Made by a program: the position numbers and the translations under genes
Shown here: positions 25,337-31,787 of the stretch, piece after piece
Position numbering within the stretch: position 1 is the first letter of the stretch
Layout of the letters: the number at the start of each line of letters is the position of its first letter
The notes under the pieces: generated by a model
Told to the model about the DNA's origin: nothing
The model's input: only the letters and a program-made list of their open reading frames with translations
Databases searched by the model: none
NCBI RefSeq assembly: GCF_002930645.1
Contig: NZ_PSNW01000001.1
Coordinates: forward strand, 124,001-188,000
Direction of reading: 5' to 3'
Length of the DNA: 64,000 bases
Source: Solimonas fluminis
GTDB lineage: Bacteria; Pseudomonadota; Gammaproteobacteria; Nevskiales; Nevskiaceae

Positions 25337-25360
25337 GCTTGGTTCATAGAACCTGGTAAA

Positions 25361-25405
25361 TGGCTCCGCGACTTGGACTCGAACCAAGGACCCAGTGATT
25401 AACAG
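25361..25405 (-). other. Attachment site: 3' fragment of a tRNA-Asn(GTT) gene
   Basis: Read on the minus strand this is the anticodon loop CTGTTAA, variable loop, T-arm GGTTCGAGTCC, acceptor strand and encoded CCA of tRNA-Asn. The 5' half is absent: left of the anticodon the sequence no longer pairs as an anticodon stem or D-arm. This is the remnant left when a phage integrates at the anticodon/3' part of a tRNA gene. The restored full gene should lie at the other prophage end, outside the window. Confidence 0.85.
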
Positions 25406-25503: not shown

Positions 25504-26469
25504 TTAGGAAGTCGGGGCGACCTTTTCCGGGGCACGGCGGTAGACCCTGTTCAGCGTGCGCGCGTCGATGTGGCCCAGGAGTCGGCCATCCTTGGCGTCG
25601 CTGCCGGCCTTGGCGCGGAGATCATGGAACGTGAAGCGCTCCGCGATCAGGCCCTGCTTCAGGCACTCGATTTGGTGCCGCTGCCAGAGCGTCTGGAAGC
25701 CGTCGGCGCTGTAGGGCTGGCCGTCGCGCCGGCAGATCACAAACAAGCTCCCCACGCCCTCGGCCGGCAGCTGGCCCGCGAGGTCCACTGCCGTTCGCAA
25801 CGCGCTCGACCAACTGACCACCAGGCGCTTGCCGGTCTTGCCTTGGCGAAAGTGGATTCCCTCACTAGTCAGCTGGGCGCGGCGGAGCTTCAGCAGGTCG
25901 CTCTCGCGCTGGCCGGTCACATAGGCCAGCGCCATCATCGCCTGGATCACGGGGCTCCCCGCCTCGAATACGGCCAGGTACTCCTCGTGGGTCACATAGC
26001 GGTCCCTGGGAGCCTCGGCGTTGCGCTCCACGCCCAGGCAGGGGTTTGCCTTGGCCAGGCGCCAGCGAACGGCCTTGGTGAAGACGTGGGACAGTAGGGC
26101 GATGTCCCGGTTGGCCTGGACCTTCGCCGGCGACTCGTCGAGATATTGGGCCACCTCGCCGCTGGAAATCTGATCGGGCGAGAGGGCGCCAAACACCTGA
26201 GTCAGTACCTCCAGGCGCCTCTCCTGGGTCTTTCTCGTGCTGGGCGCCTTCGTAGGCAGGATGTCCCGGGCGTACCTGAGGAATATCTCCCTCATGCGGA
26301 CGCGGCCATCGCCACTCAGCAGCTCTGCATAGGCCCGTAGCGCTTCGGGTTTCTCCTTGCCGAGCTTGATCCATTTGCCCTCGCTGGTGACATAGAACCA
26401 GAACCCGCGCGAGAAATACACGCGCGCCGGCATGTCCTTGTCCTTAGTTCTTTTCCGTCCCATTCCCAT
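25504..26469 (-). CDS. Phage tyrosine-recombinase integrase
   Basis: Catalyses site-specific integration at the adjacent tRNA-Asn. The 321 residues have an N-terminal arm-binding part (MPARVYFSRGFWFYVT), a SAM-like core-binding domain (about 55-150) and the catalytic domain with Arg188 (TGQRESDL), Lys in GKTGK (about 211-214), His282-X2-Arg285 (FHDLR), His300 (LLGHID) and nucleophile Tyr310 (LNRVY). It is 99 bases from the attachment site and just downstream of the DUF4224 gene. Confidence 0.94.
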   Translation of the reverse strand: MGMGRKRTKDKDMPARVYFSRGFWFYVTSEGKWIKLGKEKPEALRAYAELLSGDGRVRMREIFLRYARDILPTKAPSTRKTQERRLEVLTQVFGALSPDQISSGEVAQYLDESPAKVQANRDIALLSHVFTKAVRWRLAKANPCLGVERNAEAPRDRYVTHEEYLAVFEAGSPVIQAMMALAYVTGQRESDLLKLRRAQLTSEGIHFRQGKTGKRLVVSWSSALRTAVDLAGQLPAEGVGSLFVICRRDGQPYSADGFQTLWQRHQIECLKQGLIAERFTFHDLRAKAGSDAKDGRLLGHIDARTLNRVYRRAPEKVAPTS

Positions 26470-27384: not shown

Positions 27385-28557
27385 CTACAGGGGGATGCAT
27401 AGCTCACTCCCCTGCAGCTTGTGCGAGATCCGCCTAGGCCGCTCCACGACGCTGATCCAGGGGTTTCGCCGGCGAAACTCAGCCTCCAGGCCATGGGCGC
27501 CGGCATGGCGCAGGTGGCCGAAGTAGCTGGCGGCCTGGCTGCGGCCGCGGCGCAGCTGCTCGGGCGTCGCGCGGATCTGGTTGCCGTGGACGTGGGCGCG
27601 CGACCAGGCGGCGAAGGCCTCCCTGGCGTGCGAGACCACGCGCCGGCGCACGCGCATGTGCGTTGGGTAAATCACGTAGCCCAGGAAGTCGCAGCCGTGG
27701 GTCAGCGGCAGCAGCTGGCGCTCGGCCTTGAGGTGCAGGTCCAGGTGCTCCCGCAGGAAGGCCTCGATGCGATCCTGCCACTCCAGCAGCTGCTCCCGGC
27801 TCTGGTGGATTAGCAGGAAGTCGTCGACGTAGCGGACATAGCGCTTGACCTTGAGGACGTGCTTGATGAACTGGTCCAGGGGATCGAGGTAGACGGTGGG
27901 CGCCAGGCACTGCGACAGCAGGTTTCCGATCGGCAGCCCGAAACCCGGCCGCGCGTTCTTCAGGCGCTTGTGGGGCGGCACCAGGGCCAGCTCTTCCGGG
28001 GTGGCTTGGTAGGTGACGCCGGCGGCGAGCGGATCGCCACGCAGGGCGGCATGAATGGCCCGCTGCAGCGTCAGCGGCAGGCCGCCAGCCTGCATGGCCT
28101 TCTTGAGCATCTGCCAGAGCTTCCGGCGGTTGACGCTATAGAAGAAGTTGGCGATGTCCAGCTTCAGGCACCAGCCGCCACCCTGGCCGGACTGGACCTG
28201 GCGGAAGAACTGCTGCACCCGCCGCACGGCCTGCAGCAGGCCCTTGCCCTTCCGGTTGGCGTAGCTGTCGTAGCAGGTCCGCGGCTCGTAGAGGGCTTCC
28301 AGCTTCGGCACGGCCCAGTGGTGGAAGACGCGGTCCCGGTAGGCCGGCGCGTGAATCTCGCGGGCCTTGGGGTCCTCGGCCACCATGCACACCGTCCGCG
28401 ACGGCACCAGGGTGTGGTCATTGATCTGATCGCGCAGCAGCAGCAGGTTGTCGATGGACCGGACATGGAACCGCGCCATGTCGCGGCCGGGCTTCTTGCC
28501 TCGCCGGGCCCGGTAATGGGCGCGCTCGAGGTCGCGGAGCGATACCCGCTCCGGCAT
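27385..28557 (-). CDS. DGR reverse transcriptase
   Basis: Copies the template-repeat RNA into cDNA with errors at adenines, which then replaces the variable repeats (mutagenic retrohoming). About 390 residues from the ATG at 28557: RT motif A LKLDIANFF (133-139), motif B GLPIGNLLSQ (207-216, the DGR-type [I/L]GxxxSQ), catalytic YVDD (243-246), then HLKAERQLLPLTHGCDFLGYVIYP (thumb boundary). VSLRDLERAHYRARRGKK is a usual DGR-RT beginning. The frame stays open upstream through the template repeat to an ATG at 28737 overlapping avd, so a longer product is possible. Confidence 0.94.
   Translation of the reverse strand: MPERVSLRDLERAHYRARRGKKPGRDMARFHVRSIDNLLLLRDQINDHTLVPSRTVCMVAEDPKAREIHAPAYRDRVFHHWAVPKLEALYEPRTCYDSYANRKGKGLLQAVRRVQQFFRQVQSGQGGGWCLKLDIANFFYSVNRRKLWQMLKKAMQAGGLPLTLQRAIHAALRGDPLAAGVTYQATPEELALVPPHKRLKNARPGFGLPIGNLLSQCLAPTVYLDPLDQFIKHVLKVKRYVRYVDDFLLIHQSREQLLEWQDRIEAFLREHLDLHLKAERQLLPLTHGCDFLGYVIYPTHMRVRRRVVSHAREAFAAWSRAHVHGNQIRATPEQLRRGRSQAASYFGHLRHAGAHGLEAEFRRRNPWISVVERPRRISHKLQGSELCIPL
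27464..27477. repeat. Prophage palindrome copy 1 (in reverse transcriptase gene)
   Basis: TTTCGCCGGCGAAA, extended by G/C to a perfect 16-bp palindrome. In the RT frame it encodes FRRR. Confidence 0.9.
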
Positions 28558-28562
28558 CCTGA

Positions 28563-28678
28563 CACTCACGGGGCGGCACGCGGAGACAGGGGACGACGAG
28601 ACCGTTGTTGTCGTCGTTGTTCCAGTTGACGTTGCCGTTGTTGAGGTTGACGAACCAGACGTGGCCCGGAGACCACGA
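28563..28678 (-). repeat. DGR template repeat (TR)
   Basis: A 116-bp non-varying donor. On the minus strand it reads as SPGHVWFVNLNNGNV followed by WNNDDNNGLVVPCLR, with nine AAC codons in the core, typical of adenine-rich DGR templates. It aligns without gaps to VR1 (116 bp) and to the first 112 bp of VR2. It lies between avd and the RT start. The only non-adenine difference shared by both VRs is at 28567 (C here, G in the VRs on the plus strand), near the end where initiation of homing occurs. Confidence 0.95.
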
Positions 28679-28733
28679 TCCCCACGCTCTTGGGACCCGG
28701 CTGCGCATCCTTGCTGCTGGTAGCGGAGCTTCG

Positions 28734-29177
28734 TCATGCGTTGACCCCGGTGGGGTGGCGCGGGTACTCAGTGTCGCGGGACGCTGCCGGTGGCCGGTGA
28801 TGCGTGGCCGCGGCATTCTGCCCGGAAGGATGCTTGCCAGAAGCCTTCAGCAGGCCCCAGGTCTGGCGACCGGCGCTGTAGGCCAGCTCGGCCAGGACCT
28901 CGTACTGCCCCGACGATTTGAAGCACTGCATGCGCCGGGCGGCCTGCATCAGCAGCTTGAGCCGATCGTTCCCCTTGCGCAGCTGAAGCAGCAGCGCCAG
29001 GCGCTCCTCCCCCGCCATCATGGCCTCCTGGGCCAGCAGGGCCGTCTGCTGGGCGGCATGGCGGATGTCCAGGCCCAGGTAGTGCTTGTACTTCGCGGGG
29101 AAGTCCGGCACCGCCCGCTCCAGCTCCTCGTGCAGGCGCTCGCAGGTCTTGATGATCTCGGGGAGGTTGGCGCGCAT
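28734..29177 (-). CDS. avd: DGR accessory variability determinant (Avd)
   Basis: A 147-residue, mostly helical basic protein of the four-helix-bundle Avd family: IIKTCERLHEELERAVPDFPAKYKHYLGLDIRHAAQQTALLAQEAMM and, near the end of the bundle, YEVLAELAYSAGRQTWGLLKASG, matching the GRxxGxW-like helix of Bordetella phage Avd. Avd is a pentameric partner that binds RT and template RNA and is required for cDNA synthesis. It sits in the canonical place between target gene and TR. A Pro/His-rich tail follows the bundle. Confidence 0.85.
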   Translation of the reverse strand: MRANLPEIIKTCERLHEELERAVPDFPAKYKHYLGLDIRHAAQQTALLAQEAMMAGEERLALLLQLRKGNDRLKLLMQAARRMQCFKSSGQYEVLAELAYSAGRQTWGLLKASGKHPSGQNAAATHHRPPAASRDTEYPRHPTGVNA

Positions 29178-29195
29178 CGCTAGGCCTGGAAAAAA

Positions 29196-29209
29196 GTCAG
29201 ATCACTGAC
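29196..29209. other. Hairpin at the end of VR1
   Basis: GTCAG-ATCA-CTGAC is a 5-bp inverted repeat with a 4-base loop. On the minus strand it spans the stop codon of target 1 and is followed by six T. The identical hairpin follows VR2 and is absent at TR. Confidence 0.75.
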
Positions 29210-29693
29210 GGGGCGGCACGCGGAGACAGGGGACGACGAGACCGCGGTAGCCGTCGTAGCGCCAGAGGACGCCGCCGCGGCGGAGGAGGACGAACCAGAC
29301 GCGGCCCGGAGACCACGAGGCGCCGCGGGCGGTGTAGACCCAGCCCGAGCTGGGCGCGTTGGGAGCGATCAGCGGGTTCACGGCCGGGCCGTGGCGCGAG
29401 CGATCGATGAGCAGCTGGATCTCCGTCTCCTCGGGGATCGCCCACTCGCCCTTGCGGCCCAGCAGGTCGCACTTCTTAGCCTGGGCCTCGGCCTGCTGGA
29501 GGTTGTCGGCGTTCTTCCAGCGGCGCACGTCGAAGTACAGGCCGAACTGCGGGAAGTGGGTGATGGCGTGGCCTTTCTTGGCGTCGGCCGGCAGCTCGGC
29601 GCCCTTGGCGTCCAGGCGCAGGAAGAGGGGCCTGCGGATGTCGATGATGATCGCCGGCGTGTCGGCCGGCGTGATGGTGGCGGGTGCGGTCAC
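29202..29693 (-). CDS. DGR target protein 1 (variable C-terminal lectin-like domain)
   Basis: A 163-residue protein whose C-terminus is VR1. After a non-conserved N-terminus (IIIDIRRPLFLRLDAKG) comes a segment shared with target 2: HAITHFPQFGLYFDVRRW, KKCDLLGRKGEW, LLIDRSRHGPAVNP. The C-terminal C-type-lectin-like (DUF1566-like) end is SPGRVWFVLLRRGGV then LWRYDGYRGLVVPCLRVPPRQ, where the residues at template asparagines vary. It has no signal peptide or membrane span. The start is a GTG with AGGAG six bases upstream. Confidence 0.9.
   Translation of the reverse strand: MTAPATITPADTPAIIIDIRRPLFLRLDAKGAELPADAKKGHAITHFPQFGLYFDVRRWKNADNLQQAEAQAKKCDLLGRKGEWAIPEETEIQLLIDRSRHGPAVNPLIAPNAPSSGWVYTARGASWSPGRVWFVLLRRGGVLWRYDGYRGLVVPCLRVPPRQ
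29203..29318 (-). repeat. DGR variable repeat 1 (VR1)
   Basis: 116 bp aligned to TR. Of 21 adenines in the TR core (CAC to the last AAC), 18 differ in VR1 and no non-adenine base differs in that core: for example AAC to CTC, CGC, GGC and TAC. The flanking parts (GTCTGGTTCGTC and GGTCTCGTCGTCCCC) are identical. It lies at the 3' end of target gene 1. Confidence 0.95.
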
Positions 29694-29729
29694 GATGAGC
29701 TCCTGTGGGATGAGGGAGTGCGGACAGAG

Positions 29730-29743
29730 GTCAGATCACTGAC
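29730..29743. other. Hairpin at the end of VR2
   Basis: Same GTCAG-ATCA-CTGAC inverted repeat as at VR1, again spanning the target stop codon. The flanks differ (CTCTGTCC instead of T6 on the minus strand), so the hairpin itself is what is conserved. Confidence 0.75.
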
Positions 29744-30335
29744 GGGGCGGCACGCGGAGACAGGGGACGACGAGACCGTTGTAGTCGTCGTTGGTGCAGA
29801 GGACGTTGCCGTTGTGGAGGTCGACGAACCAGACGCGGCCCGGAGACCCCTTCAGCCCGCGGTCGCAGTAGATGAGCCCTTGGTTGGGCATGTTGGGGAA
29901 GGACTGCGGGTTGACCGCCGGCTCGCGGAAATCGCGATCGATGATCAGGTTGTTCTCCCAGTCCTTGCCGACCACCCACTCGCCCTTGCGGCCGAGGAGG
30001 TCGCACTCGCGAGCCAGCTGCCAGGCCTCGGCGGTGCTGGATACGTTGCGCGGCGCCCGGATATCGAACATCAGGCCGGCGGTGTCGAAGTGGGTGATGA
30101 CGTGGTGGCTGCTGCCGCCCTCGACCATGTTGCCGCTGGCGTCGAGGAAGCGGCGCGGGAGATCGGCGGGATTCAGGATGACTGGGGCACGCTCGATCAG
30201 CAGGCCGCCGCCGAACTGCGCGGGCGGCGCAGCGGCAGTCGGCGCCGTGAGGGCGGCGGCAATGTCGCCGCTTATGGAGATGGAGAGGGCGTTGTCGCCC
30301 TCGCCTTTGTAGACTGAGATATGCAGGTTGGACAC
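29736..30335 (-). CDS. DGR target protein 2 (variable C-terminal lectin-like domain)
   Basis: A 199-residue homologue of target 1 with a longer N-terminus (MSNLHISVYKGEGDNALSISISGDIAAAL, an Ala/Pro linker, then LIERAPVILNPADLPRRFLDA). The shared core is HHVITHFDTAGLMFDIRAPRN, ARECDLLGRKGEW, NNLIIDRDFREPAVNPQ. The end is SPGRVWFVDLHNGNV then LCTNDDYNGLVVPCLRVPPRQ. No signal peptide. GTG start with AGGAG upstream. 42 bases separate it from target 1, and the pair looks like an ancient tandem duplication. Confidence 0.9.
   Translation of the reverse strand: MSNLHISVYKGEGDNALSISISGDIAAALTAPTAAAPPAQFGGGLLIERAPVILNPADLPRRFLDASGNMVEGGSSHHVITHFDTAGLMFDIRAPRNVSSTAEAWQLARECDLLGRKGEWVVGKDWENNLIIDRDFREPAVNPQSFPNMPNQGLIYCDRGLKGSPGRVWFVDLHNGNVLCTNDDYNGLVVPCLRVPPRQ
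29737..29848 (-). repeat. DGR variable repeat 2 (VR2)
   Basis: 112 bp aligned to TR. Only 7 of 21 core adenines differ (for example AAC to GAC, CAC, CTC, ACC, TAC), plus one G-to-C change (TGG to TGC) that adenine mutagenesis does not explain. It shares with VR1 the CAC-to-CGC and one AAC-to-CTC change. Confidence 0.93.
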
Positions 30336-30395: not shown

Positions 30396-30629
30396 CTACT
30401 CTTCCTCGTCGCCGATGAGCTCCCTGGCTCGAGCCAGGAACACCTCCTCGGTCATGACCTCGCCGCGATCCCAGGCGTCGCAAGCCTCTTCGCTCGTCGG
30501 ATGAAACTCCGTGCAGCGGCCGCAGCGGTTGCATTCAACGTGCGCCGGCATCCCGCCGATGGCGCAGCCCCTACCGCCGCAGACACAGGGCTTTGCGGGG
30601 TCGCAGATAGAGCGGTTGTGCTTGGACAT
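30396..30629 (-). CDS. Lar-like zinc-ribbon protein
   Basis: A 77-residue protein with CDPAKPCVCGGRGC and HVECNRCGRCTEFHPTSEEACDAWDRG. The CxxC pairs followed by an S-E-E-A-C-x-x-W helix resemble the Lar family, named for restriction alleviation, though many members have no tested function. It sits in the leftward accessory operon next to rdgC. Confidence 0.6.
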   Translation of the reverse strand: MSKHNRSICDPAKPCVCGGRGCAIGGMPAHVECNRCGRCTEFHPTSEEACDAWDRGEVMTEEVFLARARELIGDEEE

Positions 30630-30631
30630 GG

Positions 30632-31519
30632 CTACTCCCGCTCAACGCCCAGTGCGGTGATGAGGTCGTCCAGCAGCTCGCCAAGATCTCCGGCCATGAG
30701 GGCGAAGTCGGCGTCGTGGGCTTCTTCCTGGGTCTCGTCGGTGTCGGGGCGGACTTCCAGGAACTCGATGCGGCTGAGCTGCAGGCGCTCGGTAAGGGTG
30801 AAGCTGACGCGCTGGTTCCAGACCAGGGCGAGCTTGGTGACGACGCAGCCCTGCGTCAGGTGGTGACGGATATCGTCGCTGGCCAGGTCGTAGCGGCCGT
30901 AGGAGATCCGCGCTCCATCTTCGTCGCGGCCCTCGATCCGGCAGGAATCGCCGAGGGCCCAGCGGCCTGGAACTTCACGCGCCGCGACCCAGCCCGTGAA
31001 GGTGTTGGCCGGCGCCAGCGGGACTTCTGGGGTGGATACGGCGAGCTCGCCGCCCAGGGAGTTGCGCAGGTACTCCACCAGCTCCTCCGCGGCCCTGGTG
31101 CTGCTGCTGGCGACAACGATGCGGTGCCGCTGCAGGTCCAGCCACACGCGGAGCTGGCCGGGCTTCGCGAAGGCCTTGGGCAGCAACTCCAGGATGATCT
31201 GCTCCTTGAGATCCTTGACCATCTTGCGACCGGGCTTGTAGCCCTTCTGCCGCTCGATCTCGGCGCACTTCTCCTCGAGGTGCTTCTTGATCACGGCGCC
31301 GGGCAGGACCTTCTGCTCCCAGCCCAGCGCGGCCAGGTACTGACGGCCCTGGTTGCGCACCAGGGCGCCGTCGGTCCAGGGCGCTACCCAGCCGATGGTC
31401 CTCGCTACGGTGCCTTCACAGGGGCGGAGCGGGAACTCGGCCAGGATCTCTTCCAACTCGCCTGGCGTGAGGTCCCAGTCCTCGTCCAGGTCAAACCACA
31501 CCAGGGCTTTGAAGAACAT
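30632..31519 (-). CDS. rdgC: Recombination-associated protein RdgC
   Basis: RdgC is a ring-shaped dsDNA-binding protein that limits RecA and replication-fork recombination. The 295 residues show the family pattern throughout: MFFKALVWFDLDEDWDLTPGELEEILAEFPLRPC at the start, GWVAPW, LAALGWEQKVLPGAVIKKHLEEKCAEIERQKGYKPGRKMVKDLKEQIILELLPKAF, and FTGWVAAREVPGRWALGDSCRIEG. Phages carry it in place of other recombination-control genes. It lies between the Lar-like and P-loop genes in the leftward operon. Confidence 0.92.
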   Translation of the reverse strand: MFFKALVWFDLDEDWDLTPGELEEILAEFPLRPCEGTVARTIGWVAPWTDGALVRNQGRQYLAALGWEQKVLPGAVIKKHLEEKCAEIERQKGYKPGRKMVKDLKEQIILELLPKAFAKPGQLRVWLDLQRHRIVVASSSTRAAEELVEYLRNSLGGELAVSTPEVPLAPANTFTGWVAAREVPGRWALGDSCRIEGRDEDGARISYGRYDLASDDIRHHLTQGCVVTKLALVWNQRVSFTLTERLQLSRIEFLEVRPDTDETQEEAHDADFALMAGDLGELLDDLITALGVERE

Positions 31520-31526
31520 GGCGGCC

Positions 31527-31787
31527 TCAGGACCTAGCCCTAGCGCGGGCTTCGCCGGCCTCGACCTGGAACATGGCGTCCTGGTAGCTGATGACGCGGC
31601 GGTCGCGGCCGTCGCCCGGCGGCGGCGCGTTGGTGAGGTGCAGGGTGTCCACGGACGTGAAGACCTGGGTGGGGTCCCAGTTGTCGCGGATCCGCGTCAG
31701 GCGGTAGTGCTTGGCGATGCGCTTGCGGTCGCGGGTCTTGCCGCAACCCGGCGGGCCGAACACGATGATGCTCCTGGTGTGCTGCAT
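31527..31787 (-). CDS. Short P-loop protein (86 residues)
   Basis: RSIIVFGPPGCGKTRDRKRIAKHY is a clear Walker A motif at the very N-terminus. No complete Walker B ATPase core follows: the protein ends after 86 residues (VTDTLHL-like strand, then an Ala/Arg-rich tail). It could be a nucleotide-binding kinase-like fragment or a minimal phage P-loop protein. It is not a ParA homologue by length or motif. Confidence 0.65.
   Translation of the reverse strand: MQHTRSIIVFGPPGCGKTRDRKRIAKHYRLTRIRDNWDPTQVFTSVDTLHLTNAPPPGDGRDRRVISYQDAMFQVEAGEARARARS

Follow-up and report, generated by a model that had tools for sequence, protein, structure and literature searches.

Introduction

The best-known function of a diversity-generating retroelement (DGR) in a phage is receptor binding. 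In the DGR of Bordetella phage BPP-1, whose diversified protein Mtd has a lectin fold, the variable repeat (VR) is followed by avd, the template repeat (TR), and the reverse transcriptase (RT), and variation of the VR is adenine-specific. Here, we describe a cassette with this order and this kind of variation in a 64,000-nt stretch (the window) of Solimonas fluminis contig NZ_PSNW01000001.1 (assembly GCF_002930645.1, positions 124,001–188,000). Unlike the BPP-1 type, analyzed here as phage vB_BbrP_003, which has one target of 381 aa and an RT outside the clade described below, the window cassette has two short targets. The reading that we favor, with some confidence, is that it is a genuine DGR diversifying two binders that are encoded in the early arm of a prophage and are probably intracellular.

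The cassette is not unique, being a known kind of element with the same layout in other phages. Burkholderia phage Magia (MT701587) carries two short targets, Avd, TR, and RT in the same order, with two VRs and an RT of the same clade; Pseudomonas phages LPPA56, Cruim01, phPA-G, and Haboob and Shewanella phage QDWS share the layout of Magia and the RT clade of the window. These phages differ from the window in RT sequence (~36% identical) and in the sequence of the VR 3′ flank. Passages of the Magia paper (PMC7883833) report a DGR with short target frames and name genes 47 and 57, whereas the VRs located here point to genes 47 and 46. The DGR of Stenotrophomonas sp. SKA14, as outlined in part of PMC6642488, also has several DUF1566 targets in one cassette, but differs from the window in having two TRs and six VRs. 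In Roux et al. 2021 (PMC8144416), most of the viral targets in DGR clades 1, 4, and 6 carry a tail-protein annotation, and the classes of viral targets include “structural” and “unknown”. Among the literature matches listed, no title or abstract opening dealt with early-arm phage DGRs as a class; most subscription papers and supplements lay outside this search.

Results

Architecture of the cassette

All parts of the DGR lie on the minus strand of the window and are transcribed in the order target 2, target 1, avd, TR, RT:

29736–30335 (−), target 2, 199 aa, predicted C-type-lectin (Lcl_C/DUF1566) protein with VR2 at the 3′ end
29737–29848 (−), VR2, 92% identical to the TR, 9 mismatches, 7 at TR adenines
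29730–29743 (−), 14-bp inverted repeat GTCAG-TGAT-CTGAC at the VR2 end, without a T run
29202–29693 (−), target 1, 163 aa, predicted C-type-lectin protein with VR1 at the 3′ end
29203–29314 (−), VR1, 83% identical to the TR, 19 mismatches, 18 at TR adenines
29196–29209 (−), the same 14-bp inverted repeat at the VR1 end, followed by six T
28734–29177 (−), avd, 147 aa, PHROG 3206 “Avd protein of DGR” (E 1.3e-7)
28563–28674 (−), TR, 112 bp with 22 adenines, from an adenine-neutral repeat search
27385–28557 (−), DGR reverse transcriptase, 390 aa, with IGNLLSQ and YVDD motifs

The initial annotation had proposed a complete DGR with two targets, avd, TR, and RT in this order and direction, and an RT with IGxxxSQ and YVDD motifs; on all of these points it was correct. 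Its 116-bp TR corresponds to a longer TR–VR1 alignment, and the repeat search without adenine preference, which recovers TR, VR1, and VR2, gives 112 bp.

Alignment of the TR with each VR over 112 bp placed the mismatches mostly at TR adenines (hypergeometric P 5e-16 for VR1 and 1.3e-4 for VR2). Each VR carries its own set of changes, and neither contains a stop codon. One non-adenine mismatch, at 28567, is common to both VRs (G in the TR, C in VR1 and VR2); VR1 has no non-adenine change except this boundary base, and VR2 has one further. Twenty-one of the TR adenines are spread over 12 variable codons (AAC nine times, GAC twice, CAC once), and one falls in the boundary motif. When the TR was used to query the whole genome, the three copies were recovered among 34 matches, the next being 33 bp long (E 0.04), and no additional remote VR was found in this search.

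DGR-class RTs carry (I/V/L)GxxxSQ and YxDD motifs, and both are present in the window RT. The longer open frame (28737–27385) matched RVT_1 (E 1.3e-15) and PHROG 1423 (E 1.5e-85), and a profile built from the window RT and three relatives had as its best PDB match 8ub7 (E 4.1e-43), which we take to be the BPP-1 DGR RT complex. The RT probably starts at 28557, directly after the TR, rather than at the first ATG (28737), since a frame from 28737 would run through the TR. None of the NCBIfam RT models reaches its cut-off for this protein; in PADLOC the generic RT model scores highest and defence-RT models score lower. A group II intron, retron, or defence RT was rejected because the TR/VR repeats and avd decide the matter. 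Pfam bAvd and NCBIfam Avd models match the accessory protein only below cut-off. The genome also holds a second RVT_1 gene (G000:C30:212427-213059, L001), with a stronger RVT_1 match than the DGR RT.

The RT clade and its variable repeats

A profile search of IMG/VR confirmed 124 RT relatives, of which 80 were kept; the surveyed set comprised 81 loci (80 plus L017), with the window’s own record included. TR and VR were found in 78 of the 81 loci. In the other three, they were unseen because the sequences begin too close to the RT, with 76 to 436 bases before it. Two VRs are present in 45 of the 78 loci, three in 4, and one in 29, and Avd homologues occur in 79/81. The clade is sparse in genomes as judged by sequence matches: 3/368 other genomes of the same class had an RT match at E 1e-60 (39–43% identity), and a scan of species genomes yielded five loci with RTs of 27–32% identity.

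Of the 113 phage records that match the window RT, nine were examined. In six of these (LPPA56, Cruim01, Magia, QDWS, phPA-G, and Haboob), two VRs lie in two short genes, and the products (118 to 220 aa) match the target hidden Markov model (HMM) of the clade. The other three, vB_BbrP_003, VP58.5, and phiARM81mr, have one VR each, in proteins of 381, 410, and 578 aa, respectively. A tree of 96 RTs groups the window, the 80 loci, and the six phages in one clade (87 tips, support 0.999) and leaves out the latter three phages and six distant loci. Support for the node that joins the window RT to the 80 loci is 0.451, and the window RT is a long single branch. The contrast with BPP-1 drawn in the initial annotation thus gains weight, with one RT clade (87/96) having short targets and three outside phages having one long target each; outside the clade, the target lengths cover these three of the nine tips.

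Adenine bias holds across the clade. In 130 TR–VR pairs compared over fixed 90-bp spans, mismatches occurred at 1819 of 2939 TR adenines and at 108 of 8761 other positions. These pairs had been picked by a TR/VR finder that tolerates mismatches at A, so that the finder’s own tally (1879 of 1923 mismatches at A) is partly built in. When C, G, or T was tolerated instead, pairs with at least seven such mismatches appeared in 24, 67, and 28 of the 81 loci, respectively (78 for A); we take these control pairs to be, presumably, for the most part true pairs read the other way round. Better tests of the bias are the fixed-span count and the comparison of VRs with one another. In 76 VR comparisons from 58 overlapping locus pairs with RTs at least 90% identical, differences were seen at 1026/1760 TR-adenine sites versus 63/6146 other sites. 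Twenty-five of these 63 come from one row (L021/L028, VR at −762) that is probably out of register, and six of the comparisons showed no difference at all. In the pair L037/L039, from two IMG datasets and with RTs 99.8% identical, 19/26 and 13/26 TR-adenine sites differ, with 0/92 non-adenine differences in each VR; both targets have been rewritten. Since close relatives differ in their VRs almost only at TR adenines, the clade is, on this comparative evidence, active in nature, and we infer retrohoming from the same differences. Between the near-identical contigs L013 and L014, also from two IMG datasets, a single difference was seen in 20,117 positions, and it lies outside the VRs.

Codon outcomes were tabulated from 126 distinct VRs. 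AAC codons became mainly Tyr, Gly, Ser, Asp, and Leu, and rarely Cys, Ile, or Arg, a non-random distribution (chi-square 663). The BPP-1 RT, according to a portion of PMC12875486, turns AAC mainly into Tyr, Ser, and Asp and disfavors Arg; Gly and Leu, frequent in the clade, are not among the leading residues given there. The clade’s outcome may thus be largely an enzyme signature, and selection on VR residues is not claimed from it, because such an enzyme bias is described for the BPP-1 RT in that source. VR1 of the window stands apart: four of its nine AAC codons encode Arg, compared to at most one in each of the 125 other VRs and 8 of 1118 AAC sites in other loci (Fisher P 2e-5, a post hoc value computed on sites that are not independent within one VR). 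Selection favoring a basic face could account for the excess, and so could an altered enzyme. Where AAC codons changed at their first base, A-to-C was in excess; an altered RT spectrum was considered as the explanation and set aside, as this excess is also seen in L079 and L039, which leaves only the Arg excess distinctive.

The window RT is itself divergent. Directly after IGNLLSQ, at 27895–27915 (−), it has a one-residue insertion found in none of the 95 other aligned RTs; it reads SQ-CLAPTV-YLD, and its relatives have five residues such as FFANV there. Perhaps the Arg excess of VR1 goes together with an altered RT spectrum linked to this insertion. Of 141 columns that 80 relatives conserve, 19 are changed in this protein, and its terminal branch is 0.55 (median 0.064). 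Together with VR2, which retains 14 of its 21 mutable adenines unchanged and has acquired a non-adenine change, these features would fit a decaying, inactive copy whose VR diversity was made by an ancestor. We consider this quite unlikely, as every reading frame is intact, YVDD is retained, and the only non-adenine change in VR1 is the boundary base, so that the last copying event should be recent relative to point mutation.

The boundary base is shared by the clade. In 50 TR flanks and 89 VR flanks from 53 representative loci, the base is G in 49/50 TR flanks and C in 89/89 VR flanks; the latter figure arises partly by construction, as VR flanks were anchored on GTCAG. On this alignment evidence, the G/C mismatch at 28567 marks the TR/VR boundary throughout the clade. 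The repeats end in a GC-rich boundary with differences beyond it, a putative direction-setting element of the kind termed initiation of mutagenic homing (IMH and IMH*).

The inverted repeat at the VR1 end belongs to a clade-wide VR 3′ motif near GTCAGTAATTGGCCTTTTTG that is absent after the TR. In BPP-1, as described in an excerpt of PMC3240598, the VR is followed by a GC-rich hairpin of 7–10 bp with a 4-nt GRNA loop; the window has a 5-bp stem and a TGAT loop. Perfect stems of at least 6 bp occur in 3/89 VR flanks (3.8 expected). A weaker stem with four core pairs is frequent (54/89 versus a shuffled mean of 8.7), yet its outer pair showed no covariation in the 89 flanks, and a conserved cruciform was therefore not accepted. 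Behind target 1, the inverted repeat and the six T are terminator-like, and a terminator role is possible; the region contains 14 terminator-like sites, not far above shuffled sequences (8.5, sd 3.1).

Target proteins

Both targets are, as judged from profiles and structural models, C-type-lectin (Lcl_C/DUF1566) proteins with a VR at the 3′ end of the gene. Each matches PF07603 (Lcl_C) only below the Pfam cut-off (E 8.6e-7 for target 1 and 5.9e-4 for target 2), and the family matches 78/78 aligned clade targets at E up to 0.01 (best 5e-32). The structures of both were predicted with AlphaFold2, with mean predicted local distance difference test (pLDDT) scores of 92.5 for target 1 and 84 for target 2. 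The best fold match of each is 8q4e, the C-terminal domain of Legionella Lcl (E 2.3e-3 and 1.8e-3, respectively). These E-values are modest, neither target having a PDB fold match at E 0.001 or better; 8q4e is also the sole PDB match in profile searches. By its entry title and NCBIfam name, Lcl is part of a bacterial collagen-like adhesin, which sets it apart from the window proteins. The first ~50 residues of target 2 form an N-terminal extension modeled with low confidence, with two short strands. No relative of target 1 was found at E 0.001 among 57 other genomes of the same family, and no match of target 2 to phages in tblastn at E 1e-5.

The targets had been described as short and devoid of a signal peptide. 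The coordinates bear out the lengths, 163 and 199 residues. As to export, the 116 clade targets recognized by the family HMM include none with a lipobox and one above a membrane-like hydropathy threshold, so that the claim stands by this heuristic, which is not a signal-peptide predictor such as SignalP.

Prophage setting and gene neighborhood

The cassette is part of a prophage of ~40.4 kb integrated in tRNA-Asn, with genes for an integrase, a repressor-like protein, regulators, primase/helicase, terminase, portal, capsid, and tail. Three features delimit its surroundings:

25360–25405 (no strand), attL, a 46-bp direct repeat equal to the 3′ end of tRNA-Asn, with the second copy beyond the window end
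25504–26469 (−), tyrosine integrase (PF00589 4.3e-11; PHROG 1 4.8e-45), adjoining attL
30632–31519 (−), RdgC (PF04381 1.1e-87), in the same leftward gene run as the cassette

The second att copy lies 1794–1839 bp past the window end (L098:2795-2870), at an intact tRNA-Asn. By a simple in-house gene caller, 17 genes follow one another between 36949 and 27385, with the cassette as the downstream end. Apart from the TR spacer, no gap between them exceeds 60 bp, and the structural genes are on the other strand. This leftward arm carries RdgC, ParB-like, and integrase genes besides the targets, in agreement with the claim of the initial annotation that the targets lie beside lysogeny and recombination genes. 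The cassette therefore does not have the single long target beside tail genes that is seen in BPP-1, but two short targets in the leftward arm.

Clade cassettes likewise sit beside repressor, recombination, methylase, or integrase genes. Where flanks are covered, integrase homologues occur in 44/81 loci, all downstream of the RT, with 35 of 45 open reading frames (ORFs) on the same strand. Among the 53 representatives, a C5-methylase-like cluster was present in 12, a ParB-like cluster in 10, and RdgC in 7 (cluster names derive from inspection of the sequences or from the member in the window). In the stretches examined, an integrase or CI-like repressor is annotated in five of the six phages of the clade, Cruim01 has SSB and methyltransferase genes, Magia has RecT, Haboob has Bet, and QDWS and Haboob have cytosine methylases. 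The window combines the RT of the clade, short Lcl_C targets, and an integrase downstream.

A CI-like repressor cluster was found in 19/53 representatives, in all cases upstream and on the same strand. The arm of CI-like repressors is a usual place for genes expressed in lysogens. This location would suit cytoplasmic or released lectins that aid the lysogen and not the phage, through superinfection exclusion, competition, or attachment after lysis. We regard that proposal as quite unlikely, given that the targets have no recognized export signal.

More weight attaches to the possibility that the early arm just happens to encode the targets, which would be binding proteins of the virion (tail-tip or decoration proteins), with the DGR serving adsorption as in BPP-1. 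A C-type-lectin fold is also found in cell-surface adhesins, and the N-terminal strand segment of target 2, also seen in many long targets, could dock to a partner. The three outside-clade phages diversify long proteins; the target neighbors in phiARM81mr are annotated as virion proteins, and those in vB_BbrP_003 and VP58.5 are mostly unnamed. The int end and the tail end adjoin on a circular genome. The Magia authors (PMC7883833) suggest adaptation to changing conditions or a change of host range. Set against this, the cassette lies on the strand opposite to the tail-tip homologue in 4/4 loci where one was found (two being the near-identical L013 and L014) and to the primase in 17/17; two or three targets are present in 49/78 loci; the targets have no long tail-attachment domain; and the tail region of the window has distal proteins of its own. 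We therefore think a virion role possible but unlikely. The initial annotation held that the diversified binding probably does not serve tropism directly, an interpretation that we find partly supported.

Several further observations were made on the prophage. The region has one promoter-like site, against 1.3 expected. Adjoining target 2, at 30396–30629, is a gene for a 77-aa cysteine-rich protein without a Pfam match, presumably Lar-like by eye, with homologues in 15/81 loci. At 31527–31787, a small P-loop protein of 86 aa is encoded, which matches IetA weakly (PADLOC, E 4e-5) and has homologues in 17/81 loci. The late region had no near DNA match among phages, and only an rdgC fragment of the prophage DNA matched plasmids.

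Discussion

Non-structural binding inside the cell is, in our judgment, the best-supported reading, by gene position, the lack of a recognized export signal, and consistency across the clade. By the known DGR mechanism, the RT together with Avd would copy TR RNA into adenine-mutagenized cDNA, which would then replace the 3′ ends of both target genes. The infected or lysogenic cell would make the products, small C-type-lectin binders, from the leftward arm along with those of the RdgC, ParB-like, and integrase genes. In each, as many as 12 residues could vary while the fold stays fixed, and a phage population could therefore sample specificities against changing partners. The most likely partners would be proteins inside the cell, belonging to the host or to competing phages, for example defence proteins, rather than an adsorption receptor.

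A number of observations weigh against this interpretation. The nearest named relatives of the targets (Lcl of 8q4e, and weak NCBIfam matches to Lsa25, FimD, and Lcl) are adhesins, and phage structural proteins normally assemble into the virion without a signal peptide. Once the phage genome is circular, ~4 kb separate the cassette from the last called tail-region gene, counted across attP; distance alone is therefore no argument against a virion role. No integrase homologue was found in the covered DNA of 37/81 loci, and 10 of the 45 integrase ORFs are on the opposite strand. As a clue to function, no conserved neighbor is universal among the 53 representatives, and the repressor-like gene of the window is outside the CI-like cluster. 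No strain-level VR variation was found for the window element itself: its single near-identical IMG/VR record (L006, L012, L020), which we take to be the same genome, is identical over 14,832 bases. The insertion peculiar to the window RT is a further point of this kind.

A more specific form of the intracellular reading can be put forward tentatively. Temperate phages of this clade might carry an antibody-like intracellular system, in which diversified early-arm lectins bind and neutralize changing partners such as host defence proteins or rival phages. In the window, target 1 would have gained an unusually arginine-rich face through VR1, perhaps together with an altered RT spectrum.

The interest of the cassette lies in what the clade diversifies: unlike in the textbook case, the targets sit with early and lysogeny genes. 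A clade with one to three short lectin targets without recognized export signals makes it testable whether phages diversify non-structural proteins, and since sequenced phages with the same layout exist, the question can be put directly. The clade-wide TR/VR boundary motifs and the RT variant of the window would provide material for work on the mechanism.

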